Assembly (NCBI GenBank): GCA_023078555.1
Contig: CM041199.1
Span: 10,155,943-10,219,942, forward strand
Reading direction: 5' to 3'
DNA: 64,000 nucleotides
From: Ulva prolifera
Lineage: Eukaryota; Chlorophyta; Ulvophyceae; Ulvales; Ulvaceae
Shown here: positions 875 through 64,000 of the stretch, in pieces
Layout of the letters: the number at the start of each line of letters is the position of its first letter
How positions within the stretch are numbered: the stretch's first letter is position 1
The notes under the pieces: generated by a model
The model's database searches: none
Told to the model about the DNA's origin: nothing
What the model saw: the letters and a program-made list of their open reading frames with translations, nothing else
Made by a program: the position numbers and the translations under genes

Positions 875-3036
875 ATGGACTTGGCTATAGACAAGCATAC
901 CCCCGCGCACCATAGGGAAGTTGCCAGAAACATCCTTTGATTCCGAAATATCAAGGACGTCAATTATGCATTGCACAGTTGTTGCTAACTCCCAGGAGTG
1001 GCGTGGAACAAAAGTGCACACTTTTCACCAACCATGTGAATGGACTTGGTTGTAGCCACGCAACCCCCCGCGCAGCAAAAGGTACGTCGCCATCAACATT
1101 CCAAGATATTGGGGGGTATGGGATGTCCATCATTCATTGCGTATTTTCTGCAGACACCATGGCGTGGTGTGGTGCAAAAGTGCACACTTTTCACCAACCA
1201 TGTGAATGGACTTGGTTGTAGCCACGCAACCCCCCGCGCGTCAAAAGGTACGTCGCCATGAACATTCCAAGATGTTGGGGGGTATGGGATGATTATCATT
1301 CATTGCATATTTGCTGCTGACTCCCAGGAGTGGCGTGGGGCAAAAGTGCACACTTTCCACCAACCCATGTGAATGGACTTGGTTGTAGCCACGCAACCCC
1401 CCGCGCAGCAAAAGGTACGTCGCCATCAACATTCCAAGATGCTGGGGGGCATGGGATGTCCATCATTCATTGCGTATTTTCTGCAGACACCATGGAGTGG
1501 TGTGGTGCAAAAGTGCACACTTTCCACCAACCCATGTGAATGGACTTGGTTGTAGCCACGCAACCCCCCGCGCATCAAAAGGTACATCGCCATCAACATT
1601 CCAAGATGTTGGGGGGTATGGGATGTCCATCATTCATTGCATATTTTCTGCAGACACCATGGAGTGGTGTGGTGCAAAAGTGCACACTTTCCACCAACCC
1701 ATGTGAATGGACTTGGTTGTAGCCACGCAACCCCCCGCGCATCAAAAGGTACGTCGCCATCAACATTCCAAGATGTTGGGGGGTATGGGATGTCCATCAT
1801 TCATTGCATATTTTCTGCAGACACCATGGAGTGGTGTGGTGCAAAAGTGCACACTTTCCACCAACCCATGTGAATGGACTTGGTTGTAGCCACGCAACCC
1901 CCCGCGCGTCAAAATGTACGTCGCCATGAACATTCCAAGATGTTGGGGGGTATGGGATGATTATCATTCATTGCATATTTGCTGCTGACTCCCAGGAGTG
2001 GCGTGGGGCAAAAGTGCACACTTTCCACCAACCCATGTGAATGGACTTGGTTGTAGCCACGCAACCCCCCGCGCAGCAAAAGGTACGTCGCCATGAACAT
2101 TCCAAGATGTTGGGGGGTATGGGATGATTATCATTCATTGCATATTTGCTGCTGACTCCCAGGAGTGGCGTGAGGCAAAAGTGCACACTTTTCACCAACC
2201 ATGTGAATGGACTTGGTTGTAGCCACGCAACCCCCCGCGCGTCAAAAGGTACGTCGCCATGAACATTCCAAGATGTTGGGGGGTATGGGATGATTATCAT
2301 TCATTGCATATTTGCTGCTGACTCCCCGGAGTGGCGTGGGGCAAAAGTGCACACTTTTCACCAACCATGTGAATGGACTTGGCTATAGACAAGCATACCC
2401 CCGCGCACCATAGGGAAGTTGCCAGAAACATCCTTTGATTCCGAAATATCAAGGACGTCAATTATGCATTGCACAGTTGTTGCTAACTCCCAGGAGTGGC
2501 GTGGAACAAAAGTGCACACTTTTCACCAACCATGTGAATGGACTTGGTTGTAGCCACGCAACCCCCCGCGCAGCAAAAGGTACGTCGCCATCAAGATTCC
2601 AAGATGTTGGGGGGTATGGGATGTCCATCATTCATTGCGTATTTTCTGCAGACACCATGGAGTGGTGTAATGCAAAAGTGCACACTTTCCACCAACCCAT
2701 GTGAATGGACTTGGTTGTAGCCACGCAACCCCCCGCGCAGCAAAAGGTACGTCGCCATGAACATTCCAAGATGTTGGGGGGTATGGGATGATTATCATTC
2801 ATTGCATATTTGCTGCTGACTCCCAGGAGTGGCGTGAGGCAAAAGTGCACACTTTTCACCAACCATGTGAATGGACTTGGTTGTAGCCACGCAACCCCCC
2901 GCGCGTCAAAAGGTACGTCGCCATGAAGATTCCAAGATGTTGGGGGGTATGGGATGATTATCATTCATTGCATATTTGCTGCTGACTCCCCGGAGTGGCG
3001 TGGGGCAAAAGTGCACACTTTTCACCAACCATGTGA

Positions 3037-4527
3037 ATGGACTTGGCTATAGACAAGCATACCCCCGCGCACCATAGGGAAGTTGCCAGAAACATCCTTT
3101 GATTCCGAAATATCAAGGACGTCAATTATGCATTGCACAGTTGTTGCTAACTCCCAGGAGTGGCGTGGAACAAAAGTGCACACTTTTCACCAACCATGTG
3201 AATGGACTTGGTTGTAGCCACGCAACCCCCCGCGCAGCAAAAGGTACGTCGCCATCAACATTCCAAGATATTGGGGGGTATGGGATGTCCATCATTCATT
3301 GCGTATTTTCTGCAGACACCATGGCGTGGTGTGGTGCAAAAGTGCACACTTTTCACCAACCATGTGAATGGACTTGGTTGTAGCCACGCAACCCCCCGCG
3401 CGTCAAAAGGTACGTCGCCATGAACATTCCAAGATGTTGGGGGGTATGGGATGATTATCATTCATTGCATATTTGCTGCTGACTCCCCGGAGTGGCGTGG
3501 GGCAAAAGTGCACACTTTTCACCAACCATGTGAATGGACTTGGCTATAGACAAGCATACCCCCGCGCACCATAGGGAAGTTGCCAGAAACATCCTTTGAT
3601 TCCGAAATATCAAGGACGTCAATTATGCATTGCACAGTTGTTGCTAACTCCCAGGAGTGGCGTGGAACAAAAGTGCACACTTTTCACCAACCATGTGAAT
3701 GGACTTGGTTGTAGCCACGCAACCCCCCGCGCAGCAAAAGGTACGTCGCCATCAACATTCCAAGATATTGGGGGGTATGGGATGTCCATCATTCATTGCG
3801 TATTTTCTGCAGACACCATGGCGTGGTGTGGTGCAAAAGTGCACGCTTTTCACCAACCATGTGAATGGACTTGAGTGTAGCCACGCAACCCCCCGCGCGT
3901 CAAAAGGTACGTCGCCATGAACATTCCAAGATGTTGGGGGGTATGGGATGATTATCATTCATTGCATATTTGCTGCTGACTCCCCGGAGTGGCGTGGGGC
4001 AAAAGTGCACACTTTTCACCAACCATGTGAATGGACTTGGCTATAGACAAGCATACCCCCGCGCACCATAGGGAAGTTGCCAGAAACATCCTTTGATTCC
4101 GAAATGTCAAGGACGTCAATTATGCATTGCACAGTTGTTGCTAACTCCCAGGAGTGGCGTGGAACAAAAGTGCACACTTTTCACCAACCATGTGAATGGA
4201 CTTGGTTGTAGCCACGCAACCCCCCGCGCAGCAAAAGGTACGTCGCCATCAACATTCCAAGATATTGGGGGGTATGGGATGTCCATCATTCATTGCGTAT
4301 TTTCTGCAGACACCATGGCGTGGTGTGGTGCAAAAGTGCACACTTTCCACCAACCCATGTGAATGGACTTGGCTATAGACAAGCATACCCCCGCGCACCA
4401 TAGGGAAGTTGCCATAAACATCCTTTGATTCTGAAATATCAAGGACGTCAAGTATGCATTGCACAGTTGTTGCTAACTCCCAGGAGTGGCGTGGAACAAA
4501 AGTGCACACTTTTCACCAACCATGTGA
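3037..4527 (+). repeat. X-P-Q trimer tract (497-bp period)
   Basis: X monomers at 3037, 3534 and 4031 are spaced exactly 497 bp apart (165 + 166 + 166), and a fourth follows at 4363. Each unit is X, then a CGCGCAGC monomer with GATATT and a P right half ending CACCAACCATG, then a CGCGCGTC Q monomer with CTCCCCGGAG. This is the clearest form of the presumed three-monomer unit. The second unit carries two private changes, GTGCACGCTTTT and ACTTGAGTGTAG. The tract continues into a CGCGCAGC R monomer at 4528. Confidence 0.88.
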
Positions 4528-4694
4528 ATGGACTTGGTTGTAGCCACGCAACCCCCCGCGCAGCAAAAGGTACGTCGCCATCAACATTCCAAGATGTTGG
4601 GGGGTATGGGATGTCCATCATTCATTGCGTATTTGCTGCTGACTCCCAGGAGTGGCGTGGGGCAAAAGTGCACACTTTTCACCAACCCATGTGA
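4528..4694 (+). repeat. Reference R-type monomer: P/Q recombinant right half
   Basis: This monomer follows P through GTCCATCATTCATTGCG and then switches to Q at the shared TATTT, continuing GCTGCTGACTCCCAGG and GTGGCGTGGGGC. It then returns to the P-like ending CACCAACCCATG after a Q-like CACTTTT. The same composite recurs many times at 4.6-12.3 kb and 20.5-26.7 kb and again at 30.6-32.6 kb, so it arose as a recombinant and was then amplified. The switch point is inferred from comparison with P and Q monomers in the same window. Confidence 0.88.
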
Positions 4695-4860
4695 ATGGAC
4701 TTGGTTGTAGCCACGCAACCCCCCGCATATCAAAGGTACGTCGCCATGAACATTCCAAGATGTTGGGGGGTATGGGATGTCCATCATTCATTGCGTATTT
4801 TCTGCAGACACCATGGCGTGGTGTGGTGCAGAAGTGCACACTTTCCACCAACCCATGTGA
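4695..4860 (+). repeat. Short-left P variant, CGCATATCAAAGG (166 bp)
   Basis: The left half has CGCATATCAAAGG in place of CGCGCATCAAAAGG, losing one A and giving a 166-bp monomer. It is followed by TACGTCGCCATGAAC and a P right half. A sister form with CGCACATCAAAGG (for example 5,194-5,359) is usually paired with GATGCTGGGGGG. Both forms are abundant at 4.7-11.2 kb, recur at 14-33 kb within higher-order repeats, and I did not see them after about 33 kb. Confidence 0.85.
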
Positions 4861-7686
4861 ATGGACTTGGTTGTAGCCACGCAACCCCCCGCGCAGCAAA
4901 AGGTACGTTGCCATCAACATTCCAAGATGTTGGGGGGTATGGGATGTCCATCATTCATTGCGTATTTGCTGCTGACTCCCAGGAGTGGCGTGGGGCAAAA
5001 GTGCACACTTTTCACCAACCCATGTGAATGGACTTGGTTGTAGCCACGCAACCCCCCGCATATCAAAGGTACGTCGCCATGAACATTCCAAGATGTTGGG
5101 GGGTATGGGATGTCCATCATTCATTGCGTATTTTCTGCAGACACCATGGCGTGGTGTGGTGCAAAAGTGCACACTTTCCACCAACCCATGTGAATGGACT
5201 TGGTTGTAGCCACGCAACCCCCCGCACATCAAAGGTACGTCGCCATGAACATTCCAAGATGCTGGGGGGTATGGGATGTCCATCATTCATTGCGTATTTG
5301 CTGCTGACTCCCAGGAGTGGCGTGGGGCAAAAGTGCACACTTTTCACCAACCCATGTGAATGGACTTGGTTGTAGCCACGCAACCCCCCGCATATCAAAG
5401 GTACGTCGCCATGAACATTCCAAGATGTTGGGGGGTATGGGATGTCCATCATTCATTGCGTATTTTCTGCAGACACCATGGCGTGGTGTGGTTCAAAAGT
5501 GCACACTTTCCACCAACCCATGTGAATGGACTTGGTTGTAGCCACGCAACCCCCCGCGCAGCAAAAGGTACGTTGCCATCAACATTCCAAGATGTGGGGG
5601 GGTATGGGATGTCCATCATTCATTGCGTATTTTCTGCAGACACCATGGCGTGGTGTGGTGCAAAAGTGCACGCTTTTCACCAACCATGTGAATGGACTTG
5701 GTTGTAGCCACGCAACCCCCCGCGCGTCAAAAGGTACGTCGCCATGAACATTCCAAGATGTTGGGGGGTATGGGATGATTATCATTCATTGCATATTTGC
5801 TGCTGACTCCCCGGAGTGGCGTGGGGCAAAAGTGCACACTTTTCACCAACCATGTGAATGGACTTGGCTATAGACAAGCATACCCCCGCGCACCATAGGG
5901 AAGTTGCCAGAAACATCCTTTGATTCCGAAATATCAAGGACGTCAATTATGCATTGCACAGTTGTTGCTAACTCCCAGGAGTGGCGTGGAACAAAAGTGC
6001 ACACTTTTCACCAACCATGTGAATGGACTTGGTTGTAGCCACGCAACCCCCCGCGCAGCAAAAGGTACGTCGCCATCAACATTCCAAGATATTGGGGGGT
6101 ATGGGATGTCCATCATTCATTGCGTATTTTCTGCAGACACCATGGCGTGGTGTGGTGCAAAAGTGCACACTTTCCACCAACCCATGTGAATGGACTTGGC
6201 TATAGACAAGCATACCCCCGCGCACCATAGGGAAGTTGCCATAAACATCCTTTGATTCTGAAATATCAAGGACGTCAAGTATGCATTGCACAGTTGTTGC
6301 TAACTCCCAGGAGTGGCGTGGAACAAAAGTGCACACTTTTCACCAACCATGTGAATGGACTTGGTTGTAGCCACGCAACCCCCCGCGCAGCAAAAGGTAC
6401 GTCGCCATCAACATTCCAAGATGTTGGGGGGGTATGGGATGTCCATCATTCATTGCGTATTTTCTGCAGACACCATGGCGTGGTGTGGTGCAGAAGTGCA
6501 CACTTTCCACCAACCCATGTGAATGGACTTGGTTGTAGCCACGCAACCTCCCGCGCAGCAAAAGGTACGTTGCCATCAACATTCCAAGATGTTGGGGGGT
6601 ATGGGATGTCCATCATTCATTGCGTATTTGCTGCTGACTCCCAGGAGTGGCGTGGGGCAAAAGTGCACACTTTTCACCAACCCATGTGAATGGACTTGGT
6701 TGTAGCCACGCAACCCCCCGCATATCAAAGGTACGTCGCCATGAACATTCCAAGATGTTGGGGGGTATGGGATGTCCATCATTCATTGCGTATTTTCTGC
6801 AGACACCATGGCGTGGTGTGGTGCAAAAGTGCACACTTTCCACCAACCCATGTGAATGGACTTGGTTGTAGCCACGCAACCCCCCGCACATCAAAGGTAC
6901 GTCGCCATGAACATTCCAAGATGCTGGGGGGTATGGGATGTCCATCATTCATTGCGTATTTGCTGATGACTCCCAGGAGTGGCGTGGGGCAAAAGTGCAC
7001 ACTTTTCACCAACCCATGTGAATGGACTTGGTTGTAGCCACGCAACCCCCCGCATATCAAAGGTACGTCGCCATGAACATTCCAAGATGTTGGGGGGTAT
7101 GGGATGTCCATCATTCATTGCGTATTTTCTGCAGACACCATGGCGTGGTGTGGTTCAAAAGTGCACACTTTCCACCAACCCATGTGAATGGACTTGGTTG
7201 TAGCCACGCAACCCCCCGCGCAGCAAAAGGTACGTTGCCATCAACATTCCAAGATGTGGGGGGGTATGGGATGTCCATCATTCATTGCGTATTTTCTGCA
7301 GACACCATGGCGTGGTGTGGTGCAAAAGTGCACACTTTCCACCAACCCATGTGAATGGACTTGGCTATAGACAAGCATACCCCCGCGCACCATAGGGAAG
7401 TTGCCATAAACATCCTTTGATTCTGAAATATCAAGGACGTCAAGTATGCATTGCACAGTTGTTGCTAACTCCCAGGAGTGGCGTGGAACAAAAGTGCACA
7501 CTTTTCACCAACCATGTGAATGGACTTGGTTGTAGCCACGCAACCCCCCGCGCAGCAAAAGGTACGTCGCCATCAACATTCCAAGATGTTGGGGGGTATG
7601 GGATGTCCATCATTCATTGCGTATTTGCTGCTGACTCCCAGGAGTGGCGTGGGGCAAAAGTGCACACTTTTCACCAACCCATGTGA
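4695..7686 (+). repeat. R/CATATC/CACATC mixed tract with a 1,662-bp duplication
   Basis: This stretch alternates R monomers, CATATC P monomers and CGCACATC monomers, with X at 5858, 6190 and 7355. Monomers at 4,985-5,600 reappear about 1,662 bp downstream (6,647-7,260) with few changes, for example CTGATGACTCCC at 6,963 versus CTGCTGACTCCC. At 6,421-6,435 the G run is expanded to G7 after GATGTT. A single X-P-Q unit (5,526-5,857, then X at 5858) with GTGCACGCTTTT interrupts the pattern. Confidence 0.75.
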
Positions 7687-9682
7687 ATGGACTTGGTTGT
7701 AGCCACGCAACCCCCCGCATATCAAAGGTACGTCGCCATGAACATTCCAAGATGTTGGGGGGTATGGGATGTCCATCATTCATTGCGTATTTTCTGCAGA
7801 CACCATGGCGTGGTGTGGTGCAGAAGTGCACACTTTCCACCAACCCATGTGAATGGACTTGGTTGTAGCCACGCAACCCCCCGCGCAGCAAAAGGTACGT
7901 TGCCATCAACATTCCAAGATGTTGGGGGGTATGGGATGTCCATCATTCATTGCGTATTTGCTGCTGACTCCCAGGAGTGGCGTGGGGCAAAAGTGCACAC
8001 TTTTCACCAACCCATGTGAATGGACTTGGTTGTAGCCACGCAACCCCCCGCATATCAAAGGTACGTCGCCATGAACATTCCAAGATGTTGGGGGGTATGG
8101 GATGTCCATCATTCATTGCGTATTTTCTGCAGACACCATGGCGTGGTGTGGTGCAAAAGTGCACACTTTCCACCAACCCATGTGAATGGACTTGGTTGTA
8201 GCCACGCAACCCCCCGCACATCAAAGGTACGTCGCCATGAACATTCCAAGATGCTGGGGGGTATGGGATGTCCATCATTCATTGCGTATTTGCTGATGAC
8301 TCCCAGGAGTGGCGTGGGGCAAAAGTGCACACTTTTCACCAACCCATGTGAATGGACTTGGTTGTAGCCACGCAACCCCCCGCATATCAAAGGTACGTCG
8401 CCATGAACATTCCAAGATGTTGGGGGGTATGGGATGTCCATCATTCATTGCGTATTTTCTGCAGACACCATGGCGTGGTGTGGTTCAAAAGTGCACACTT
8501 TCCACCAACCCATGTGAATGGACTTGGTTGTAGCCACGCAACCCCCCGCGCAGCAAAAGGTACGTTGCCATCAACATTCCAAGATGTGGGGGGGTATGGG
8601 ATGTCCATCATTCATTGCGTATTTGCTGCTGACTCCCAGGAGTGGCGTGGGGCAAAAGTGCACACTTTTCACCAACCCATGTGAATGGACTTGGTTGTAG
8701 CCACGCAACCCCCCGCATATCAAAGGTACGTCGCCATCAACATTCCAAGATGTTGGGGGGTATGGGATGTCCATCATTCATTGCGTATTTTCTGCAGACA
8801 CCATGGCGTGGTGTGGTGCAGAAGTGCACACTTTCCACCAACCCATGTGAATGGACTTGGTTGTAGCCACGCAACCCCCCGCGCAGCAAAAGGTACGTTG
8901 CCATCAACATTCCAAGATGTTGGGGGGTATGGGATGTCCATCATTCATTGCGTATTTGCTGCTGACTCCCAGGAGTGGCGTGGGGCAAAAGTGCACACTT
9001 TTCACCAACCCATGTGAATGGACTTGGTTGTAGCCACGCAACCCCCCGCATATCAAAGGTACGTCGCCATGAACATTCCAAGATGTTGGGGGGTATGGGA
9101 TGTCCATCATTCATTGCGTATTTTCTGCAGACACCATGGCGTGGTGTGGTGCAAAAGTGCACACTTTCCACCAACCCATGTGAATGGACTTGGTTGTAGC
9201 CACGCAACCCCCCGCACATCAAAGGTACGTCGCCATGAACATTCCAAGATGCTGGGGGGTATGGGATGTCCATCATTCATTGCGTATTTGCTGATGACTC
9301 CCAGGAGTGGCGTGGGGCAAAAGTGCACACTTTTCACCAACCCATGTGAATGGACTTGGTTGTAGCCACGCAACCCCCCGCATATCAAAGGTACGTCGCC
9401 ATGAACATTCCAAGATGTTGGGGGGTATGGGATGTCCATCATTCATTGCGTATTTTCTGCAGACACCATGGCGTGGTGTGGTTCAAAAGTGCACACTTTC
9501 CACCAACCCATGTGAATGGACTTGGTTGTAGCCACGCAACCCCCCGCGCAGCAAAAGGTACGTTGCCATCAACATTCCAAGATGTGGGGGGGTATGGGAT
9601 GTCCATCATTCATTGCGTATTTTCTGCAGACACCATGGCGTGGTGTGGTGCAAAAGTGCACACTTTCCACCAACCCATGTGA
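7687..9682 (+). repeat. 998-bp (6-mer) tandem duplication inside a 14-monomer X-free stretch
   Basis: Monomers beginning at 7,687, 7,853, 8,020, 8,186 and 8,352 are matched by monomers at 8,685, 8,851, 9,018, 9,184 and 9,350, an offset of 998 bp or six monomers. Shared private features include GTGCAGAAGTGC and CTGATGACTCCC. The first monomer pair differs by GCCATGAAC versus GCCATCAAC. The match ends within the sixth pair, where an R right half (8,518) corresponds to a P right half (9,516). No X lies between 7,520 and 9,682. Confidence 0.8.
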
Positions 9683-10510
9683 ATGGACTTGGCTATAGAC
9701 AAGCATACCCCCGCGCACCATAGGGAAGTTGCCATAAACATCCTTTGATTCTGAAATATCAAGGACGTCAAGTATGCATTGCACAGTTGTTGCTAACTCC
9801 CAGGAGTGGCGTGGAACAAAAGTGCACACTTTTCACCAACCATGTGAATGGACTTGGTTGTAGCCACGCAACCCCCCGCGCAGCAAAAGGTACGTCGCCA
9901 TCAACATTCCAAGATGTTGGGGGGTATGGGATGTCCATCATTCATTGCGTATTTGCTGCTGACTCCCAGGAGTGGCGTGGAACAAAAGTGCACACTTTTC
10001 ACCAACCATGTGAATGGACTTGGTTGTAGCCACGCAACCCCCCGCGCAGCAAAAGGTACGTTGCCATCAACATTCCAAGATGTTGGGGGGTATGGGATGT
10101 CCATCATTCATTGCGTATTTGCTGCTGACTCCCAGGAGTGGCGTGGGGCAAAAGTGCACACTTTTCACCAACCCATGTGAATGGACTTGGCTATAGACAA
10201 GCATACCCCCGCGCACCATAGGGAAGTTGCCAGAAACATCCTTTGATTCCGAAATATCAAGGACGTCAATTATGCATTGCACAGTTGTTGCTAACTCCAG
10301 GAGTGGCGTGGAACAAAAGTGCACACTTTTCACCAACCATGTGAATGGACTTGGTTGTAGCCACGCAACCCCCCGCGCAGCAAAAGGTACGTCGCCATCA
10401 ACATTCCAAGATATTGGGGGGTATGGGATGATTATCATTCATTGCATATTTGCTGCTGACTCCCCGGAGTGGCGTGGGGCAAAAGTGCACACTTTTCACC
10501 AACCATGTGA
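9018..10510 (+). repeat. 1,493-bp 9-mer, first copy of a near-perfect tandem duplication
   Basis: This nine-monomer unit includes X2 at 9683 and X1 at 10181. Everything I compared matches the following 1,493 bp: monomer types and order, X classes, GATGTGGGGGGG, the private 1-bp deletion CTAACTCCAGG near 10,290, and CTCCCCGGAG near 10,460. Another private feature is the R-to-X chimeric monomer at 9,848-10,013. The left limit is set where the upstream monomer ending changes. Confidence 0.88.
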
Positions 10511-12003
10511 ATGGACTTGGTTGTAGCCACGCAACCCCCCGCATATCAAAGGTACGTCGCCATGAACATTCCAAGATGTTGGGGGGTATGGGATGTCCAT
10601 CATTCATTGCGTATTTTCTGCAGACACCATGGCGTGGTGTGGTGCAAAAGTGCACACTTTCCACCAACCCATGTGAATGGACTTGGTTGTAGCCACGCAA
10701 CCCCCCGCACATCAAAGGTACGTCGCCATGAACATTCCAAGATGCTGGGGGGTATGGGATGTCCATCATTCATTGCGTATTTGCTGATGACTCCCAGGAG
10801 TGGCGTGGGGCAAAAGTGCACACTTTTCACCAACCCATGTGAATGGACTTGGTTGTAGCCACGCAACCCCCCGCATATCAAAGGTACGTCGCCATGAACA
10901 TTCCAAGATGTTGGGGGGTATGGGATGTCCATCATTCATTGCGTATTTTCTGCAGACACCATGGCGTGGTGTGGTTCAAAAGTGCACACTTTCCACCAAC
11001 CCATGTGAATGGACTTGGTTGTAGCCACGCAACCCCCCGCGCAGCAAAAGGTACGTTGCCATCAACATTCCAAGATGTGGGGGGGTATGGGATGTCCATC
11101 ATTCATTGCGTATTTTCTGCAGACACCATGGCGTGGTGTGGTGCAAAAGTGCACACTTTCCACCAACCCATGTGAATGGACTTGGCTATAGACAAGCATA
11201 CCCCCGCGCACCATAGGGAAGTTGCCATAAACATCCTTTGATTCTGAAATATCAAGGACGTCAAGTATGCATTGCACAGTTGTTGCTAACTCCCAGGAGT
11301 GGCGTGGAACAAAAGTGCACACTTTTCACCAACCATGTGAATGGACTTGGTTGTAGCCACGCAACCCCCCGCGCAGCAAAAGGTACGTCGCCATCAACAT
11401 TCCAAGATGTTGGGGGGTATGGGATGTCCATCATTCATTGCGTATTTGCTGCTGACTCCCAGGAGTGGCGTGGAACAAAAGTGCACACTTTTCACCAACC
11501 ATGTGAATGGACTTGGTTGTAGCCACGCAACCCCCCGCGCAGCAAAAGGTACGTTGCCATCAACATTCCAAGATGTTGGGGGGTATGGGATGTCCATCAT
11601 TCATTGCGTATTTGCTGCTGACTCCCAGGAGTGGCGTGGGGCAAAAGTGCACACTTTTCACCAACCCATGTGAATGGACTTGGCTATAGACAAGCATACC
11701 CCCGCGCACCATAGGGAAGTTGCCAGAAACATCCTTTGATTCCGAAATATCAAGGACGTCAATTATGCATTGCACAGTTGTTGCTAACTCCAGGAGTGGC
11801 GTGGAACAAAAGTGCACACTTTTCACCAACCATGTGAATGGACTTGGTTGTAGCCACGCAACCCCCCGCGCAGCAAAAGGTACGTCGCCATCAACATTCC
11901 AAGATATTGGGGGGTATGGGATGATTATCATTCATTGCATATTTGCTGCTGACTCCCCGGAGTGGCGTGGGGCAAAAGTGCACACTTTTCACCAACCATG
12001 TGA
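10511..12003 (+). repeat. 1,493-bp 9-mer, second copy
   Basis: This is the downstream copy of 9,018-10,510, with X2 at 11176 and X1 at 11674. It repeats the private deletion CTAACTCCAGG (near 11,783) and the chimeric monomer at 11,341-11,506. The copy ends at 12,003, where an X2/X1 hybrid monomer follows instead of a CATATC monomer. Near-identity over 1.5 kb indicates very recent duplication, or possibly an assembly artefact. Confidence 0.88.
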
Positions 12004-12335
12004 ATGGACTTGGCTATAGACAAGCATACCCCCGCGCACCATAGGGAAGTTGCCAGAAACATCCTTTGATTCTGAAATATCAAGGACGTCAAGTATGCAT
12101 TGCACAGTTGTTGCTAACTCCCAGGAGTGGCGTGGAACAAAAGTGCACACTTTTCACCAACCATGTGAATGGACTTGGTTGTAGCCACGCAACCCCCCGC
12201 GCAGCAAAAGGTACGTTGCCATCAACATTCCAAGATGTTGGGGGGTATGGGATGTCCATCATTCATTGCGTATTTGCTGCTGACTCCCAGGAGTGGCGTG
12301 GGGCAAAAGTGCACACTTTTCACCAACCCATGTGA

Positions 12336-43597: not shown

Positions 43598-43761
43598 TGG
43601 AATTGGTTGTACCCACGCACCCCCTGCGCATCAAAAGGTACGTCGCCGTCAACATTAAAAGATGTTGGAGGGTATGGGATGTCCATCATTCATTGCGTAT
43701 TTCTGCAGACACCATGGAGTGGTGTGGTGCAAAAATGCACATTTTCCACCAACCCATGTGA

Positions 43762-47258: not shown

Positions 47259-48089
47259 ATGGACTTGGTTGTAGCCATGCAACCCCCTGCGCATCAAAAG
47301 GTACGTCCCCATGAACATTCAAAGATGTTGGGGGGTATGGGATGTCCATCATTCATTGCGTATTTTCTGCAGACACCATGGAGTGGTGTGGTGCAAAAAT
47401 GCACATTTTCCACCAACCCATGTGAATGGACTTGGTTGTAGCCACGCAACCCCCCGCGCAGCAAAAGGTACGTCCCCATGAACATTCAAAGATGTTGGGG
47501 GGTATGGGATGTCCATCATCCATTGCGTATTTTCTGCAGACACCATGGAGTGGTGTGGTGCAAAAATGCACACTTTCCACCAACCCATGTGAATGGACTT
47601 GGTTGTAGCCACGCAACCCCCCGCGCATCAAAAGGTACGTCGCCATGAACATTCCAAGACGTTGGGGGGTATGGGATGATTATCATTCATTGCGTATTTT
47701 CTGCAGACACCATGGAGTGGTGTGGTGCAAAAGAGCACACTTTCCACCAACCCATGTGAATGGACTTGGTTGTAGCCACGCAACCCCCCGCGCATGAAAA
47801 GGTACGTCGCCATGAACATTCCAAGATGTTGGGGGGTATGGGATGATTATCGTTCATTGCATATTTGCTGCTAACTCCCAGGAGTGGCGTTGGGCAAAAG
47901 TGCACACTTTTCACCAACCATGTGAATGGACTTGGCTATAGACAAGCATACCCCCGCGCACCATAGGGAAGTTGCCAGAAACATCCTTTGATTCTGAAAG
48001 ATCTAGGACGTCAAGTATGCATTGCACAGTTGTTGCTAACTCCCAGGAGTGGCGTGGAACAAAAGTGCACACTTTCCACCAACCCATGT
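47259..48089 (+). repeat. 2,165-bp-offset copy of 45,094-45,924
   Basis: The two segments share the private GTAGCCATGCAACC (near 45,110 and 47,275; CATGC in place of CACGC), CTGCTAACTCCC in the Q monomer (45,706; 47,871) and the X3 monomers 45761 and 47926. The shared private changes show common descent. The offset of 2,165 bp is 13 monomers, the same size as the 13-mer at 55.9-59.2 kb. Confidence 0.8.
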
Positions 48090-48091
48090 GA

Positions 48092-52251: not shown

Positions 52252-53915
52252 ATGGACTTGGTTGTAGCCACGCAACCCCCCGCGCATCAAAAGGTACGTC
52301 GCCATGAACCTTCCAAGATGTTGGGGCGTATGGGATGATTATCGTTCATTGCATATTTGCTGCTGACTCCCAGGAGTGGCGTGGGGCAAAAGTGCACACT
52401 TTTCACCAACCATGTGAATGGACTTGGTTGTAGCCACGCAACCCCCCGCGCATGAAAAGGTACGTCGCCATGAACATTCCAAGATGTTGGGGGGTATGGG
52501 ATGATTATCATTCATTGCATATTTGCTGGTGACTCCCAGGAGTGGCGTGGGGCAAAAGTGCACACTTTTCACCAACCATGTGAATGGACTTGGCTATAGA
52601 CAAGCATACCCCCGCGCACCATAGGGAAGTTGCCAGAAACATCCTTTGATTCTGAAAGATCTAGGACGTCAAGTATGCATTGCACAGTTGTTGCTAACTC
52701 CCAGGAGTGGCGTGGAACAAAAGTGCACACTTTTCACCAACCATGTGAATGGACTTGGTTGTAGCCACGCAACCCCCCGCGCAGCAAAAGGTACATCGCG
52801 ATCAACATTCCAAGATTTTGGGGGGTATGGGATGTCCATCATTCATTGCGTATTTTCTGCAGACACCATGGCGTGGTGTGGTGCAAAAGTGCACACTTTC
52901 CACCAACCCATGTGAATGGACTTGGTTGTAGCCACGCAACCCCCCGCGCAGCAAAAGGTACATCGCGATCAACATTCCAAGATGTTGGGGGGTATGGGAT
53001 GTCCATCATTCATTGCGTATTGTCTGCAGACACCATGGCGTGGTGTGGTGCAAAAGTGCACATTTTCCACCAACCCATGTGAATGGACTTGGTTGTACCC
53101 ACGCACCCCCCGCGCAGCAAAAGGTACATCGCGATCAACATTCCAAGATTTTGGGGGGTATGGGATGTCCATCATTCATTGCGTATTTTCTGCAGACACC
53201 ATGGCGTGGTGTGGTGCAAAAGTGCACACTTTCCACCAACCCATGTGAATGGACTTGGTTGTAGCCACGCAACCCCCCGCGCAGCAAAAGGTACATCGCG
53301 ATCAACATTCCAAGATGTTGGGGGGTATGGGATGTCCATCATTCATTGCGTATTTTCTGCAGACACCATGGCGTGGTGTGGTGCAAAAGTGCACACTTTC
53401 CACCAACCCATGTGAATGGACTTGGTTGTAGCCACGCAACCCCCCGCGCAGCAAAAGGTACATCGAGATCAACATTCCAAGATGTTGGGGGGTATGGGAT
53501 GTCCATCATTCATTGCGTATTTTCTGCAGACACCATGGCGTGGTGTGGTGCAAAAGTGCACACTTTTCACCAACCATGTGAATGGACTTGGTTGTAGCCA
53601 CGCAACCCCCTGCGCATCAAAAGGTACGTCCCCATGAACATTCAAAGATGTTGGGGGGTATGGGATGTCCATCATTCATTGCGTATTTTCTGCAGACACC
53701 ATGGAGTGGTGTGGTGCAAAAATGCACATTTTCCACCAACCCATGTGAATGGACTTGGTTGTAGCCACGCAACCCCCCGCGCAGCAAAAGGTACGTTGCC
53801 ATCAACATTCCAAGATGTTGGGGGGTATGGGATGTCCATCATTCATTGCGTATTTTCTGCAGACACCATGGCGTGGTGTGGTGCAAAAGTGTACACTTTC
53901 CACCAACGCATGTGA
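52252..53915 (+). repeat. 1,664-bp 10-mer higher-order repeat, copy 2
   Basis: This repeats copy 1 including the private GAACCTTCCAAG and GGGGCGTATGGG, with X3 at 52584. I saw two single-base differences: CATCGAGATC near 53,461, and CCCCCTGCGC near 53,606 where copy 1 has CCCCCCGCGC. The next 9-10 monomers diverge in order. Confidence 0.87.
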
Positions 53916-55411
53916 ATGGACTTGGTTGTAGCCACGCAACCCCCCGCGCATCAAAAGGTACATCGCCATCAACATTCCAAGATGTTGGGGGGTATGGGAT
54001 GTCCATCATTCATTGCGTATTTTCTGCAGACACCATGGAGTGGTGTGGTGCAAAAGTGTACACTTTCCACCAACCCATGTGAATGGACTTGGTTGTAGCC
54101 ACGCAACCCCCCGCGCATGAAAAGGTACGTCGCCATGAACATTCCAAGATGTTGGGGGGTATGGGATGATTATCGTTCATTGCATATTTGCTGCTGACTC
54201 CCAGGAGTGGCGTTGGGCAAAAGTGCACACTTTTCACCAACCATGTGAATGGACTTGGCTATAGACAAGCATACCCCCGCGCACCATAGGGAAGTTGCCA
54301 GAAACATCCTTTGATTCTGAAAGATCTAGGACGTCAAGTATGCATTGCACAGTTGTTGCTAACTCCCAGGAGTGGCGTGGAACAAAAGTGCACACTTTTC
54401 ACCAACCATGTGAATGGACTTGGTTGTAGCCACGCAACCCCCCGCGCAGCAAAAGGTACATCGCGATCAACATTCCAAGATTTTGGGGGGTATGGGATGT
54501 CCATCATTCATTGCGTATTTTCTGCAGACACCATGGCGTGGTGTGGTGCAAAAGTGCACACTTTCCACCAACCCATGTGAATGGACTTGGTTGTAGCCAC
54601 GCAACCCCCCGCGCAGCAAAAGGTACATCGCGATCAACATTCCAAGATGTTGGGGGGTATGGGATGTCCATCATTCATTGCGTATTGTCTGCAGACACCA
54701 TGGCGTGGTGTGGTGCAAAAGTGCACATTTTCCACCAACCCATGTGAATGGACTTGGTTGTACCCACGCACCCCCTGCGCATCAAAAGGTACGTCGCCGT
54801 CAACATTCCAAGATGTTGGAGGGTATGGGATGTCCATCATTCATTGCGTATTTTCTGCAGACACCATGGAGTGGTGTGGTGCAAAAATGCACATTTTCCA
54901 CCAACCCATGTGAATGGACTTGGTTGTAGCCACGCAACCCCCCGCGCAGCAAAAGGTACGTCCCCATGAACATTCAAAGATGTTGGGGGGTATGGGATGT
55001 CCATCATCCATTGCGTATTTTCTGCAGACACCATGGAGTGGTGTGGTGCAAAAGAGCACACTTTCCACCAACCCATGTGAATGGACTTGGTTGTAGCCAC
55101 GCAACCCCCCGCGCATGAAAAGGTACGTCGCCATGAACATTCCAAGATGTTGGGGGGTATGGGATGATTATCGTTCATTGCATATTTGCTGCTGACTCCC
55201 AGGAGTGGCGTTGGGCAAAAGTGCACACTTTTCACCAACCATGTGAATGGACTTGGCTATAGACAAGCATACCCCCGCGCACCATAGGGAAGTTGCCAGA
55301 AACATCCTTTGATTCTGAAAGATCTAGGACGTCAAGTATGCATTGCACAGTTGTTGCTAACTCCCAGGAGTGGCGTGGAACAAAAGTGCACACTTTTCAC
55401 CAACCATGTGA
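53916..55411 (+). repeat. Mixed tract with X3 at 54249 and 55247
   Basis: Two X3 monomers lie 998 bp apart, each preceded by a CGCATGAAAAGG Q monomer with TATCGTTC and GCGTTGGGC. Between them are NruI P monomers, a GTATTGTCTGCAG monomer, an ACCC-CTGCG monomer (54,748) and a GTCCCC/TTCAAAG monomer (54,914). This is the last X-containing stretch before a long X-free zone. Confidence 0.72.
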
Positions 55412-56744
55412 ATGGACTTGGTTGTAGCCACGCAACCCCCCGCGCAGCAAAAGGTACATCGCGATCAACATTCCAAGATTTTGGGGGGTATGGGATGTCC
55501 ATCATTCATTGCGTATTTTCTGCAGACACCATGGCGTGGTGTGGTGCAAAAGTGCACACTTTCCACCAACCCATGTGAATGGACTTGGTTGTAGCCACGC
55601 AACCCCCCGCGCAGCAAAAGGTACATCGCGATCAACATTCCAAGATGTTGGGGGGTATGGGATGTCCATCATTCATTGCGTATTGTCTGCAGACACCATG
55701 GCGTGGTGTGGTGCAAAAGTGCACATTTTCCACCAACCCATGTGAATGGACTTGGTTGTACCCACGCACCCCCCGCGCAGCAAAAGGTACATCGCGATCA
55801 ACATTCCAAGATTTTGGGGGGTATGGGATGTCCATCATTCATTGCGTATTTTCTGCAGACACCATGGCGTGGTGTGGTGCAAAAGTGCACACTTTCCACC
55901 AACCCATGTGAATGGACTTGGTTGTAGCCACGCAACCCCCCGCGCAGCAAAAGGTACATCGCGATCAACATTCCAAGATGTTGGGGGGTATGGGATGTCC
56001 ATCATTCATTGCGTATTGTCTGCAGACACCATGGCGTGGTGTGGTGCAAAAGTGCACATTTTCCACCAACCCATGTGAATGGACTTGGTTGTACCCACGC
56101 ACCCCCTGCGCATCAAAAGGTACGTCGCCGTCAACATTCCAAGATGTTGGAGGGTATGGGATGTCCATCATTCATTGCGTATTTTCTGCAGACACCATGG
56201 AGTGGTGTGGTGCAAAAATGCACATTTTCCACCAACCCATGTGAATGGACTTGGTTGTAGCCACGCAACCCCCCGCGCAGCAAAAGGTACGTCCCCATGA
56301 ACATTCAAAGATGTTGGGGGGTATGGGATGTCCATCATCCATTGCGTATTTTCTGCAGACACCATGGAGTGGTGTGGTGCAAAAGAGCACACTTTCCACC
56401 AACCCATGTGAATGGACTTGGTTGTAGCCACGCAACCCCCCGCGCATCAAAAGGTACGTCGCCATGAATATTCCAAGATGTTGGGGGGTATGGGATGATT
56501 ATCGTTCATTGCATATTTGCTGCTGACTCCCAGGAGTGGCGTGGGGCAAAAGTGCACACTTTTCACCAACCATGTGAATGGACTTGGTTGTAGCCACGCA
56601 ACCCCCCGCGCAGCAAAAGGTACGTCGCCATCAACATTCCAAGATTTTGGGGGGTATGGGATGTCCATCATTCATTGCGTATTTTCTGCAGACACCATGG
56701 CGTGGTGTGGTGCAAAAGTTCACACTTTCCACCAACCCATGTGA

Positions 56745-57742
56745 ATGGACTTGGTTGTAGCCACGCAACCCCCCGCGCAGCAAAAGGTACATCGCGATCA
56801 ACATTCCAAGATGTTGGGGGGTATGGGATGTCCATCATTCATTGCGTATTGTCTGCAGACACCATGGCGTGGTGTGGTGCAAAAGTGCACATTTTCCACC
56901 AACCCATGTGAATGGACTTGGTTGTACCCACGCACCCCCCGCGCAGCAAAAGGTACATCGCGATCAACATTCCAAGATTTTGGGGGGTATGGGATGTCCA
57001 TCATTCATTGCGTATTTTCTGCAGACACCATGGCGTGGTGTGGTGCAAAAGTGCACACTTTCCACCAACCCATGTGAATGGACTTGGTTGTACCCACGCA
57101 CCCCCCGCGCAGCAAAAGGTACATCGCGATCAACATTCCAAGATTTTGGGGGGTATGGGATGTCCATCATTCATTGCGTATTTTCTGCAGACACCATGGC
57201 GTGGTGTGGTGCAAAAGTGCACACTTTCCACCAACCCATGTGAATGGACTTGGTTGTAGCCACGCAACCCCCCGCGCAGCAAAAGGTACATCGCGATCAA
57301 CATTCCAAGATGTTGGGGGGTATGGGATGTCCATCATTCATTGCGTATTGTCTGCAGACACCATGGCGTGGTGTGGTGCAAAAGTGCACATTTTCCACCA
57401 ACCCATGTGAATGGACTTGGTTGTACCCACGCACCCCCCGCGCAGCAAAAGGTACATCGCGATCAACATTCCAAGATTTTGGGGGGTATGGGATGTCCAT
57501 CATTCATTGCGTATTTTCTGCAGACACCATGGCGTGGTGTGGTGCAAAAGTGCACACTTTCCACCAACCCATGTGAATGGACTTGGTTGTACCCACGCAC
57601 CCCCCGCGCAGCAAAAGGTACATCGCGATCAACATTCCAAGATTTTGGGGGGTATGGGATGTCCATCATTCATTGCGTATTTTCTGCAGACACCATGGCG
57701 TGGTGTGGTGCAAAAGTGCACACTTTCCACCAACCCATGTGA
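56745..57742 (+). repeat. 499-bp trimer in two matching tandem copies
   Basis: 56,745-57,243 and 57,244-57,742 match in all markers compared. Each consists of an NruI/GTATTGTCTGCAG monomer followed by two GTACCC/CCCCCCGCGCAGC/GATTTT P monomers. A third copy begins at 57,743 but breaks into a GTCCCC/TTCAAAG monomer at 57,910. No X is involved, so trimers can also arise from ordinary monomers. Confidence 0.83.
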
Positions 57743-59409
57743 ATGGACTTGGTTGTAGCCACGCAACCCCCCGCGCAGCAAAAGGTACATCGCGATCAAC
57801 ATTCCAAGATGTTGGGGGGTATGGGATGTCCATCATTCATTGCGTATTGTCTGCAGACACCATGGCGTGGTGTGGTGCAAAAGTGCACATTTTCCACCAA
57901 CCCATGTGAATGGACTTGGTTGTAGCCACGCAACCCCCCGCGCAGCAAAAGGTACGTCCCCATGAACATTCAAAGATGTTGGGGGGTATGGGATGTCCAT
58001 CATTCATTGCGTATTTTCTGCAGACACCATGGCGTGGTGTGGTGCAAAAGTGCACACTTTCCACCAACCCATGTGAATGGACTTGGTTGTAGCCACGCAA
58101 CCCCCCGCGCAGCAAAAGGTACATCGCGATCAACATTCCAAGATGTTGGGGGGTATGGGATGTCCATCATTCATTGCGTATTGTCTGCAGACACCATGGC
58201 GTGGTGTGGTGCAAAAGTGCACATTTTCCACCAACCCATGTGAATGGACTTGGTTGTACCCACGCACCCCCTGCGCATCAAAAGGTACGTCGCCGTCAAC
58301 ATTCCAAGATGTTGGAGGGTATGGGATGTCCATCATTCATTGCGTATTTTCTGCAGACACCATGGAGTGGTGTGGTGCAAAAATGCACATTTTCCACCAA
58401 CCCATGTGAATGGACTTGGTTGTAGCCACGCAACCCCCCGCGCAGCAAAAGGTACGTCCCCATGAACATTCAAAGATGTTGGGGGGTATGGGATGTCCAT
58501 CATCCATTGCGTATTTTCTGCAGACACCATGGAGTGGTGTGGTGCAAAAGAGCACACTTTCCACCAACCCATGTGAATGGACTTGGTTGTAGCCACGCAA
58601 CCCCCCGCGCATCAAAAGGTACGTCGCCATGAATATTCCAAGATGTTGGGGGGTATGGGATGATTATCGTTCATTGCATATTTGCTGCTGACTCCCAGGA
58701 GTGGCGTGGGGCAAAAGTGCACACTTTTCACCAACCATGTGAATGGACTTGGTTGTAGCCACGCAACCCCCCGCGCAGCAAAAGGTACGTCGCCATCAAC
58801 ATTCCAAGATTTTGGGGGGTATGGGATGTCCATCATTCATTGCGTATTTTCTGCAGACACCATGGCGTGGTGTGGTGCAAAAGTTCACACTTTCCACCAA
58901 CCCATGTGAATGGACTTGGTTGTAGCCACGCAACCCCCCGCGCAGCAAAAGGTACATCGCGATCAACATTCCAAGATGTTGGGGGGTATGGGATGTCCAT
59001 CATTCATTGCGTATTGTCTGCAGACACCATGGCGTGGTGTGGTGCAAAAGTGCACATTTTCCACCAACCCATGTGAATGGACTTGGTTGTACCCACGCAC
59101 CCCCCGCGCAGCAAAAGGTACATCGCGATCAACATTCCAAGATTTTGGGGGGTATGGGATGTCCATCATTCATTGCGTATTTTCTGCAGACACCATGGCG
59201 TGGTGTGGTGCAAAAGTGCACACTTTCCACCAACCCATGTGAATGGACTTGGTTGTAGCCACGCAACCCCCCGCGCAGCAAAAGGTACATCGCGATCAAC
59301 ATTCCAAGATTTTGGGGGGTATGGGATGTCCATCATTCATTGCGTATTTTCTGCAGACACCATGGCGTGGTGTGGTGCAAAAGTGCACACTTTCCACCAA
59401 CCCATGTGA

Positions 59410-60075
59410 ATGGACTTGGTTGTAGCCACGCAACCCCCCGCGCAGCAAAAGGTACATCGCGATCAACATTCCAAGATGTTGGGGGGTATGGGATGTCCAT
59501 CATTCATTGCGTATTGTCTGCAGACACCATGGCGTGGTGTGGTGCAAAAGTGCACATTTTCCACCAACCCATGTGAATGGACTTGGTTGTACCCACGCAC
59601 CCCCCGCGCAGCAAAAGGTACATCGCGATCAACATTCCAAGATTTTGGGGGGTATGGGATGTCCATCATTCATTGCGTATTTTCTGCAGACACCATGGCG
59701 TGGTGTGGTGCAAAAGTGCACACTTTCCACCAACCCATGTGAATGGACTTGGTTGTAGCCACGCAACCCCCCGCGCAGCAAAAGGTACATCGCGATCAAC
59801 ATTCCAAGATGTTGGGGGGTATGGGATGTCCATCATTCATTGCGTATTGTCTGCAGACACCATGGCGTGGTGTGGTGCAAAAGTGCACATTTTCCACCAA
59901 CCCATGTGAATGGACTTGGTTGTACCCACGCACCCCCCGCGCAGCAAAAGGTACATCGCGATCAACATTCCAAGATTTTGGGGGGTATGGGATGTCCATC
60001 ATTCATTGCGTATTTTCTGCAGACACCATGGCGTGGTGTGGTGCAAAAGTGCACACTTTCCACCAACCCATGTGA
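59410..60075 (+). repeat. 333-bp dimer in two matching tandem copies
   Basis: 59,410-59,742 and 59,743-60,075 are matching dimers of an NruI/GTATTGTCTGCAG monomer and a GTACCC/GATTTT monomer. A third NruI monomer at 60,076 has reverted to TATTTTCTGCAG, so the expansion ends there. The dimer is the trimer of 56,745 less one GTACCC monomer. Confidence 0.82.
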
Positions 60076-60741
60076 ATGGACTTGGTTGTAGCCACGCAAC
60101 CCCCCGCGCAGCAAAAGGTACATCGCGATCAACATTCCAAGATGTTGGGGGGTATGGGATGTCCATCATTCATTGCGTATTTTCTGCAGACACCATGGCG
60201 TGGTGTGGTGCAAAAGTGCACATTTTCCACCAACCCATGTGAATGGACTTGGTTGTACCCACGCACCCCCTGCGCATCAAAAGGTACGTCGCCGTCAACA
60301 TTCCAAGATGTTGGAGGGTATGGGATGTCCATCATTCATTGCGTATTTTCTGCAGACACCATGGAGTGGTGTGGTGCAAAAATGCACATTTTCCACCAAC
60401 CCATGTGAATGGACTTGGTTGTAGCCACGCAACCCCCCGCGCAGCAAAAGGTACGTCCCCATGAACATTCAAAGATGTTGGGGGGTATGGGATGATTATC
60501 GTTCATTGCATATTTGCTGCTGACTCCCAGGAGTGGCGTGGGGCAAAAGTGCACACTTTTCACCAACCATGTGAATGGACTTGGTTGTAGCCACGCAACC
60601 CCCCGCGCAGCAAAAGGTACGTCGCCATCAACATTCCAAGATTTTGGGGGGTATGGGATGTCCATCATTCATTGCGTATTTTCTGCAGACACCATGGCGT
60701 GGTGTGGTGCAAAAGTTCACACTTTCCACCAACCCATGTGA

Positions 60742-60778
60742 ATGGACTTGGTTGTAGCCACGCATTGGCTATAGACAA
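60742..60778 (+). repeat. Rearranged X start with 17-bp insertion, copy 1
   Basis: The X monomer normally starts ATGGACTTGGCTATAG. Here it starts ATGGACTTGG, then TTGTAGCCACGCATTGG, then CTATAGACAAGC. The extra bases equal the start of an ordinary monomer (through CCACGCA) rejoined to the TTGG of X. This looks like a template switch or an out-of-register end joining with almost no junction homology. Confidence 0.88.
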
Positions 60779-61257
60779 GCATACCCCCGCGCACCATAGG
60801 GAAGTTGCCAGAAACATCCTTTGATTCTGAAAGATCTAGGACGTCAAGTATGCATTGCACAGTTGTTGCTAACTCCCAGGAGTGGCGTGGAACAAAAGTG
60901 CACACTTTTCACCAACCATGTGAATGGACTTGGTTGTAGCCACGCAACCCCCCGCGCAGCAAAAGGTACGTCGCCATCAACATTCCAAGATTTTGGGGGG
61001 TATGGGATGTCTATCATTCATTGCGTATTTTCTGCAGACACCATGGCGTGGTGTGGTGCAAAAGTGCACACTTTCCACCAACCCATGTGAATGGACTTGG
61101 TTGTAGCCACGCAACCCCCCGCGCAGCAAAAGGTACATCGCGATCAACATTCCAAGATGTTGGGGGGTATGGGATGTCCATCATTCATTGCGTATTTTCT
61201 GCAGACACCATGGCGTGGTGTGGTGCAAAAGTGCACATTTTCCACCAACCCATGTGA

Positions 61258-61294
61258 ATGGACTTGGTTGTAGCCACGCATTGGCTATAGACAA
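61258..61294 (+). repeat. Rearranged X start with 17-bp insertion, copy 2
   Basis: This is the same 17-bp insertion as at 60,742. The X-to-X distance from copy 1 is 516 bp, that is 499 plus 17, so the insertion moved with a trimer duplication. Upstream it is preceded by an NruI P monomer with CACATTTTCC rather than the GTTCACAC monomer seen before copies 1 and 3. Confidence 0.88.
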
Positions 61295-62772
61295 GCATAC
61301 CCCCGCGCACCATAGGGAAGTTGCCAGAAACATCCTTTGATTCTGAAAGATCTAGGACGTCAAGTATGCATTGCACAGTTGTTGCTAACTCCCAGGAGTG
61401 GCGTGGAACAAAAGTGCACACTTTTCACCAACCATGTGAATGGACTTGGTTGTAGCCACGCAACCCCCCGCGCAGCAAAAGGTACGTCGCCATCAACATT
61501 CCAAGATTTTGGGGGGTATGGGATGTCTATCATTCATTGCGTATTTTCTGCAGACACCATGGCGTGGTGTGGTGCAAAAGTGCACACTTTCCACCAACCC
61601 ATGTGAATGGACTTGGTTGTAGCCACGCAACCCCCCGCGCAGCAAAAGGTACATCGCGATCAACATTCCAAGATGTTGGGGGGTATGGGATGTCCATCAT
61701 TCATTGCGTATTTTCTGCAGACACCATGGCGTGGTGTGGTGCAAAAGTGCACATTTTCCACCAACCCATGTGAATGGACTTGGTTGTACCCACGCACCCC
61801 CTGCGCATCAAAAGGTACGTCGCCATCAACATTCCAAGATGTTGGAGGGTATGGGATGTCCATCATTCATTGCGTATTTTCTGCAGACACCATGGAGTGG
61901 TGTGGTGCAAAAGAGCACACTTTCCACCAACCCATGTGAATGGACTTGGTTGTACCCACGCACCCCCTGCGCATCAAAAGGTACGTCGCCGTCAACATTC
62001 CAAGATGTTGGAGGGTATGGGATGTCCATCATTCATTGCGTATTTTCTGCAGACACCATGGAGTGGTGTGGTGCAAAAATGCACATTTTCCACCAACCCA
62101 TGTGAATGGACTTGGTTGTAGCCACGCAACCCCCCGCGCAGCAAAAGGTACGTCCCCATGAACATTCAAAGATGTTGGGGGGTATGGGATGTCCATCATC
62201 CATTGCGTATTTTCTGCAGACACCATGGAGTGGTGTGGTGCAAAAATGCACACTTTCCACCAACCCATGTGAATGGACTTGGTTGTAGCCACGCAACCCC
62301 CCGCGCATCAAAAGGTACGTCGCCATGAACATTCCAAGACGTTGGGGGGTATGGGATGATTATCATTCATTGCGTATTTTCTGCAGACACCATGGAGTGG
62401 TGTGGTGCAAAAGAGCACACTTTCCACCAACCCATGTGAATGGACTTGGTTGTAGCCACGCAATCCCCCGCGCATCAAAAGGTACGTCGCCATGAATATT
62501 CCAAGATGTTGGGGGGTATGGGATGATTATCGTTCATTGCATATTTGCTGCTGACTCCCAGGAGTGGCGTGGGGCAAAAGTGCACACTTTTCACCAACCA
62601 TGTGAATGGACTTGGTTGTAGCCACGCAACCCCCCGCGCAGCAAAAGGTACGTCGCCATCAACATTCCAAGATTTTGGGGGGTATGGGATGTCCATCATT
62701 CATTGCGTATTTTCTGCAGACACCATGGCGTGGTGTGGTGCAAAAGTTCACACTTTCCACCAACCCATGTGA

Positions 62773-62809
62773 ATGGACTTGGTTGTAGCCACGCATTGGC
62801 TATAGACAA
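62773..62809 (+). repeat. Rearranged X start with 17-bp insertion, copy 3
   Basis: This is the third and last copy of the insertion, 2,031 bp after copy 1. The flanks (60,575 to about 61,250 and 62,606 to about 63,280) match, including the private GTTCACAC in the preceding monomer and GATGTCTATC in the monomer after X. It therefore spread by duplication of a larger unit. Confidence 0.88.
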
Positions 62810-62936
62810 GCATACCCCCGCGCACCATAGGGAAGTTGCCAGAAACATCCTTTGATTCTGAAAGATCTAGGACGTCAAGTATGCATTGCACAGTTGTTGC
62901 TAACTCCCAGGAGTGGCGTGGAACAAAAGTGCACAC

Positions 62937-64000
62937 TTTTCACCAACCATGTGAATGGACTTGGTTGTAGCCACGCAACCCCCCGCGCAGCAAAAGGTAC
63001 GTCGCCATCAACATTCCAAGATTTTGGGGGGTATGGGATGTCTATCATTCATTGCGTATTTTCTGCAGACACCATGGCGTGGTGTGGTGCAAAAGTGCAC
63101 ACTTTCCACCAACCCATGTGAATGGACTTGGTTGTAGCCACGCAACCCCCCGCGCAGCAAAAGGTACATCGCGATCAACATTCCAAGATGTTGGGGGGTA
63201 TGGGATGTCCATCATTCATTGCGTATTTTCTGCAGACACCATGGCGTGGTGTGGTGCAAAAGTGCACATTTTCCACCAACCCATGTGAATGGACTTGGTT
63301 GTACCCACGCACCCCCTGCGCATCAAAAGGTACGTCGCCATCAACATTCCAAGATGTTGGAGGGTATGGGATGTCCATCATTCATTGCGTATTTTCTGCA
63401 GACACCATGGAGTGGTGTGGTGGAAAAGAGCACACTTTCCACCAACCCATGTGAATGGACTTGGTTGTAGCCACGCAACCCCCCGCGCATCAAAAGGTAC
63501 GTCGCCATGAACATTCCAAGATGTTGGGGGGTATGGGATGATTATCGTTCATTGCATATTTGCTGCTGACTCCCAGGAGTGGCGTGGGGCAAAAGTGCAC
63601 ACTTTTCACCAACCATGTGAATGGACTTGGCTATAGACAAGCATACCCCCGCGCACCATAGGGAAGTTGCCAGAAACATCCTTTGATTCTGAAAGATCTA
63701 GGACGTCAAGTATGCATTGCACAGTTGTTGCTAACTCCCAGGAGTGGCGTGGAACAAAAGTGCACACTTTTCACCAACCATGTGAATGGACTTGGTTGTA
63801 GCCACGCAACCCCCCGCGCAGCAAAAGGTACGTCGCCATCAAAATTCCAAGATGTTGGGGGGTATGGGATGTCCATCATTCATTGCGTATTTTCTGCAGA
63901 CACCATGGCGTGGTGTGGTGCAAAAGTGCACACTTTCCACCAACCCATGTGAATGGACTTGGTTGTAGCCACGCAACCCCCCGCGCATGAAAAGGTACGT
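62937..64000 (+). repeat. End tract; array continues past the window
   Basis: The last 1 kb holds a GATGTCTATC monomer, an NruI monomer, an ACCC-CTGCG monomer with GTGGTGGAAAAGAGC near 63,419, a Q monomer with TATCGTTC, and a normal X3 at 63621 without the 17-bp insertion. The final bases run into another ordinary monomer with CGCGCATGAAAAGG, so no array edge is visible. Confidence 0.85.

Follow-up and report, generated by a model that had tools for sequence, protein, structure and literature searches.

In primate centromeres the satellite array is layered, with the most identical monomers at its centre and more divergent ones at its periphery (PMC11062924 and PMC8997354, in the parts at hand), and the layers of centromere 8 are similar on both arms (PMC8997354, PMC11062924). 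The available sections of PMC10910784 describe the Brachypodium satellites CentBd and CentBs, whose monomers of ∼156/157 bases occur in several centromeres in arrays that are enriched in CENH3. In the green algae studied by PMC11005252 (as excerpted) the centromeres are rich in transposons, and its two Chlorella genomes have no tandem satellites in theirs; satellite centromeres seem to be confined to animals and plants (PMC8997354, likewise in part). Here we analysed a stretch of 64,000 bases, the window (C4:10155943-10219942; C4 is one of the 44 contigs of an assembly of 88.9 Mb), which consists entirely of satellite DNA and belongs to a larger array of R and X monomers. Its X monomers form three classes (X1, X2 and X3) that follow one another in strata. 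We consider it likely that this is a single, chromosome-specific array with a nucleosome-length unit, in which duplication and deletion of blocks sorted older variants locally into strata.

Like human and other primate centromeres, the array is a long head-to-tail satellite with discrete variant domains, a homogeneous interior and a degenerate edge. Unlike the primate layers as those excerpts present them, it lacks a gradient inward of the outer 6.5 kb, shows one side only and has its inner class at the edge as well. The unequal-exchange model (Smith 1976, as described in the available part of PMC8997354) agrees with the duplicate blocks of neighbouring monomers and with the local homogeneity, but the duplications on C4 apparently range from a few monomers up to ∼344-390 kb. 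With CentBd and CentBs (PMC10910784, same sections) the array shares a similar monomer size, local homogenisation within a chromosome and insertions of long terminal repeat (LTR) elements; in contrast to them, the C4 satellite forms one array as far as checked. The organism is possibly related in kind to the green algae of PMC11005252 (in the excerpt at hand), to judge from matches to chlorophyll a/b-binding proteins. Among the papers listed in literature searches, which cannot match by sequence, no description of this satellite was seen.

The initial annotation had described 58 X monomers in three classes: X1, interleaved with X2, up to 13.5 kb, X2 alone from 13.66 to 33.6 kb and X3 alone from 33.94 kb on. 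We recovered all 58 among the 385 anchored monomers of the window. Assignment by four diagnostic sites gave 11 X1, 27 X2, 19 X3 and one intermediate (at 11,974), distributed over the same three zones (Table 1). The starts of the X1 monomers span 845-13,300, with five X2 between them; the intermediate is either an X1/X2 recombinant or a relic. One X3 monomer, at 39,406, carries an X1-like C at one diagnostic site. Along the window the class changes 10 times, compared to 37.1 times (standard deviation (sd) 3.4, minimum 22) in 20,000 shuffles. The signal is weaker for X1 versus X2 alone (7 changes versus 15.6, sd 2.5, shuffle minimum 6). The four diagnostic sites of the three classes form a star around one intermediate. 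One X2 monomer, compared at full length with two R types, was 70% and 76% identical to them, and its ends matched the second type. We also compared X with R by eye for the birth order of X1, X2 and X3; the polarity was conflicting and we claim no order.

The strata continue beyond the window. The X1 marker occurs genome-wide at 48 places, all at 10,097,957-10,169,366, and the X2 marker at 30 places, all at 10,146,080-10,189,482 (every place is listed for both). X3 far exceeds the other classes in copy number, with 887 places; among the 100 matches listed, 98 lie from 10,189,956 on and two at 10,096,460 and 10,101,132. In samples at 10.40, 10.60, 10.81, 11.00 and 11.17 Mb, 45 of the 46 X monomers were X3 and the remaining one had an unread site. 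Two further variants are also confined: the 183-base X with an 18-base junction insert (43 of 43 places at 10.217-10.309 Mb) and a deep-core 200-mer (at ≤2 mismatches, 40 places, all at 10.436-11.028 Mb). This confirms that discrete sequence layers hold across the whole assembled array. The annotated three-way split is thus array-wide in its ordered strata but not exclusive, as two X3 sit at the outermost end of the X1 zone. These two belong to the degenerate outermost 6 kb, so it is probable that the classes existed side by side from early on. For these analyses, two intervals between anchors that fell outside 150-200 bases, a stray left-flank anchor and the LTR insertion were dropped from the monomer rows, and samples L001-L008 were left out. 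The 18-base junction of the 183-base X resembles a past out-of-register R/X join.

The array occupies ∼10,095,527-11,177,225 on C4 (∼1.08 Mb) with a unit of 166/167 bases; in the window, Tandem Repeats Finder (TRF) reported a period of 167 and 384.5 copies. Thus the monomer is of nucleosome length and the array close to a megabase. An R+X pattern allowing ≤3 mismatches, which would miss more divergent relatives, matched 6,254 places genome-wide, 6,254 of them forward and 0 reverse. Among the 100 matches listed the first ones are already on C4, so that, provided the listing follows contig order, there are none on C1-C3; later contigs are not itemised singly. An array of this length would be expected to hold ∼6,400 units, and with 6,254 found there should be few or none elsewhere. 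The satellite family therefore seems to form a single array whose monomers all point the same way and, as far as the listed matches show, is not shared by the chromosomes of the genome.

At the 33.8-kb border the R monomers change together with the X class. Many substitutions common in R monomers on the right are absent or rare on the left, and two left R markers occur for the last time at 33,249 and 32,916. The join is slightly interleaved, because right-type R monomers are present to the left of it, in a pocket (Table 1) and as lone markers at 21,443 and 33,747. Identical pairs within 60 monomers bridge 33.8 kb only 4 times, compared to a median of 41 when R monomers alone are counted and 57 when all are; of 834 cuts, this one ranks 6 by the first count and 5 by the second. 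Other low points lie near -15, 39-40, 85 and 106 kb. The cut at 13.5 kb ranks 122 (R only) and 96 (all) of 834. In a tree of the window's 132 distinct R monomers, left versus right of 33.8 kb required 14 changes compared to 44.0 (sd 2.9) in 300 shuffles, while X1 zone versus X2 zone gave a weak signal (15 changes versus 20.3, sd 2.0, minimum 15); R types were labelled by the stratum of their highest abundance, 7 of the 132 occurring in more than one. The tree and the bridging ranks together make 33.8 kb a hard border and 13.5 kb a soft one.

Neighbouring monomers have been duplicated in blocks. Of the 955 contiguous monomers over 10.130-10.290 Mb, 513 belong to exact duplicate blocks that are 4 or more monomers long (sought in whole monomers; the longest has 24), with the highest similarity between neighbours, and no such block has copies both left and right of 33.8 kb. 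We simulated block duplication and deletion from a mixed start, without selection or positional bias, in 5 runs per setting. With a mean block of 12, the median number of class changes per 58 X monomers was 38 after 0 events, 22 after 5,000 and 3 after 20,000. Neutral block duplication and deletion thus gives strata comparable to or stronger than those observed.

Duplication is also seen at a far larger scale. Near-identical anchors recur in the core at equal offsets of 333,303 (5 pairs), 391,117 (5), 338,799 (3), 391,242 (3) and 733,869 bases (3), and the equal offsets of 333-391 kb persist over spans of several kilobases. Judged by these anchors, a tandemly repeated block of ∼344-390 kb makes up about three-quarters of the X3 domain, and its repetition would have added ∼0.4 Mb (Table 1); block coordinates are anchor positions rather than true ends, and the chain between anchors is inferred. 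In the one pair compared on sequence, an offset of 393,113 read from the anchors aligned 18 consecutive monomers with 2 differences in total (16 of 18 identical, 3 kb, ∼99.9%), compared to 16.7 differences per monomer on the next-best diagonal. The steps between offsets are mostly near multiples of the monomer (4,990, 5,496, 1,996 and 1,162), but that from 391,117 to 391,242 is not. In addition, two core loci 14,135 bases apart are identical at 3,336 of 3,340 positions.

Table 1. Features of the satellite array and its surroundings (positions are those of the window unless contig C4 is given)
Feature	Position	Strand	Evidence
166/167-base satellite array, head to tail	1..64000	+	TRF; 385 anchors; place in genome
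X1 stratum interleaved with X2 (11 X1, 5 X2, 1 intermediate)	845..13465	+	Diagnostic sites; genome-wide X1 count
X2-only stratum, 22/22 X monomers (starts 13,631-33,416)	13631..33580	+	Diagnostic sites; genome-wide X2 count
X3-only stratum (AGATCT), 19/19 X monomers; X3 goes on to the right of the window	33914..63755	+	Diagnostic sites
Hard border: X2 to X3 and R markers switch together; among the lowest in identical-pair bridging	33200..35600	.	R markers, pair counts, R tree
Pocket of right-type R monomers within the X2 stratum, left of the hard border	28921..32083	+	Marker positions
Three X monomers of 183 bases, each with an 18-base R/X junction insertion; they open a 43-copy sub-stratum	60711..62924	+	Monomer extraction; genome-wide marker
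Tandem block A (∼10.420-10.764 Mb), block B (to ∼11.154 Mb) and the first part of a third, as far as the gap	C4:10420412-11177225		Anchors
Ty3/gypsy-type LTR element inside the X1 stratum	C4 ∼10,120,162-10,130,512		Domain and repeat comparison
Dispersed 1.35-kb repeat at the contig end	C4:11182252-11183602		19 other long copies and one short piece, on several contigs

Satellite variant strata are often taken as a record of age. The initial annotation had proposed layered expansion, with newer variants expanding beside older ones as in human centromeres. Read on the model of primate centromeres, X1 would be the oldest class, X2 younger and X3 the youngest, with an active core pushing old monomers outwards. 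The sharp, ordered strata across the array agree with this, as does the dominance of X3 in copy number (887). We looked at private substitutions, i.e. those occurring once among the 1,321 monomers analysed; neither the age stretches nor the trend include the monomers next to the gap. Per monomer, the number was 0.571 for the first 14 from the edge, 0.125 for the following 24 and 0.014-0.083 farther in. The sample at 10.60 Mb had 0 in 59 monomers, which also favours layering; sparse sampling of the core would make private scores there, if anything, too high. Against position over 10.095-10.29 Mb the fall was weak (Spearman rho -0.07, p 0.025), and it vanished without the outer 6.5 kb (rho -0.02, p 0.50). 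The left edge is thus degenerate, with divergence raised in the outer 6.5 kb only, but there is no steady fall from edge to core. Among the outermost 38 monomers, 12 differ by 5-10 from every monomer of three comparison groups, and both X1 and X3 are present, so X3 is not limited to an inner young layer. The annotation had also raised strata symmetric around a core; the assembly contains no mirror, as X1 and X2 are seen on the left side alone, and on the right the array runs into a gap of 5,000 Ns. Moreover, the X3 domain holds five copies of a dispersed repeat, and the neutral simulation produces such strata. We conclude that layering agrees with the sharp array-wide strata and the degenerate left edge but is unlikely as an explanation of the whole; together, the data suggest that an age gradient is not needed for strata to be sharp.

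Local sorting by block duplication and deletion would explain the array as follows. Repeated duplication and deletion of monomer blocks, by unequal sister exchange or break-induced replication, would copy neighbours onto neighbours until each stretch became fixed for the X variant it already contained, locally X1, X2 or X3, and later the 183-base X. The 33.8-kb border would be the place where two such domains meet and have hardly exchanged sequence in recent times, the X3 domain would have grown by very large duplications of the ∼344-390-kb block, and the outer few kilobases, being outside this turnover, would decay. We infer the exchange mechanism, its neutrality and the greater age of the variants relative to their spread. 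That X and R markers switch together at 33.8 kb supports this reading, as does the confinement of X1, X2, the 183-base X and the deep-core 200-mer to one stretch each. Several points weigh against it. Exact blocks of at least 4 monomers do not bridge the soft 13.5-kb border either. The edge decay and the nominally significant inward fall (rho -0.07, p 0.025) are also predicted by layering. The simulation used an arbitrary start and arbitrary rates in its 5 runs and speaks to sufficiency only. Beyond 10.29 Mb, ∼48 of 887 kb were read and the core is known mainly through markers; the giant duplication, finally, could be partly a product of the assembly.

That the strata or the giant block as a whole arose in assembly, from haplotypes or mis-joined contigs placed end to end, we consider improbable. 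The array ends at 11,177,225 and is followed by the 5,000 Ns, a round, placeholder-like length; the last 1,377 bases of the contig, after the Ns, are other sequence. Beside this gap the monomers carry 0.381 private substitutions and 0.619 private indels each, a mutation load that we attribute to poor assembly. Blocks A and B are collinear, as is expected of two alleles. However, private indels number 0-0.068 per monomer in the other stretches, X1 and X2 interleave across >20 kb instead of switching just once, and a pocket of right-type R monomers lies left of the border. Furthermore, the third block (from ∼11.154 Mb) shares two anchors 4,990 bases apart with block A, whereas B shows one. A uniform X3 (8 core forms, 110 of 137 copies in one; the stretch beside the gap is left out of these counts) could have been spread over the core by selection or drive acting on the X monomer, for instance if it binds a centromere protein, but this is very improbable, given that X2 is equally uniform (26 of 29 in one form), X1 has 4 forms in 44, and the X share of monomers varies over ∼10-27 per cent with no consistent increase towards the core.

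Other elements interrupt or flank the array. The Ty3/gypsy-type element encodes reverse transcriptase, RNase H, integrase zinc-binding and chromo domains; its 1,058-base terminal repeats are 99.8% alike and it is flanked by a 5-base duplication. It looks like a recent insertion and is uninformative about the age of the stratum. All five copies of the dispersed 1.35-kb repeat in the X3 domain have a single orientation, and two pairs of copies at offsets of 376,180 and 389,455 could fit the ∼344-390-kb duplication. A different, 19-base tandem array fills C4 9950000-9959999, with repeated frames also at 9900000-9909999, ∼135-195 kb to the left of the satellite. Among the four open frames of sample L012, one gave a Pfam match, just above the cut-off, to a Ulp1 protease.

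Finally, we considered what kind of locus this may be. The genome contains 38 stretches matching the chlorophyll a/b-binding family, so the host is probably a photosynthetic eukaryote. At least three consecutive TTTAGGG or TTTTAGGG units were matched on no contig of the assembly. Centromeric satellites are usually common to all chromosomes, and chromosome-specific cases exist. It is a doubtful proposition that the array is a single-chromosome satellite centromere of an alga, built by ∼350-kb tandem duplications on top of local sorting of variants. If the host is an alga, a megabase satellite of nucleosome length on one chromosome would be unusual, and the interest would increase further if the array also proved to be centromeric. 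In this one array the X class, the R markers, private mutations and whole-array maps can be compared side by side, and it is a natural example of a satellite growing on two scales, by a few monomers and by ∼350 kb.

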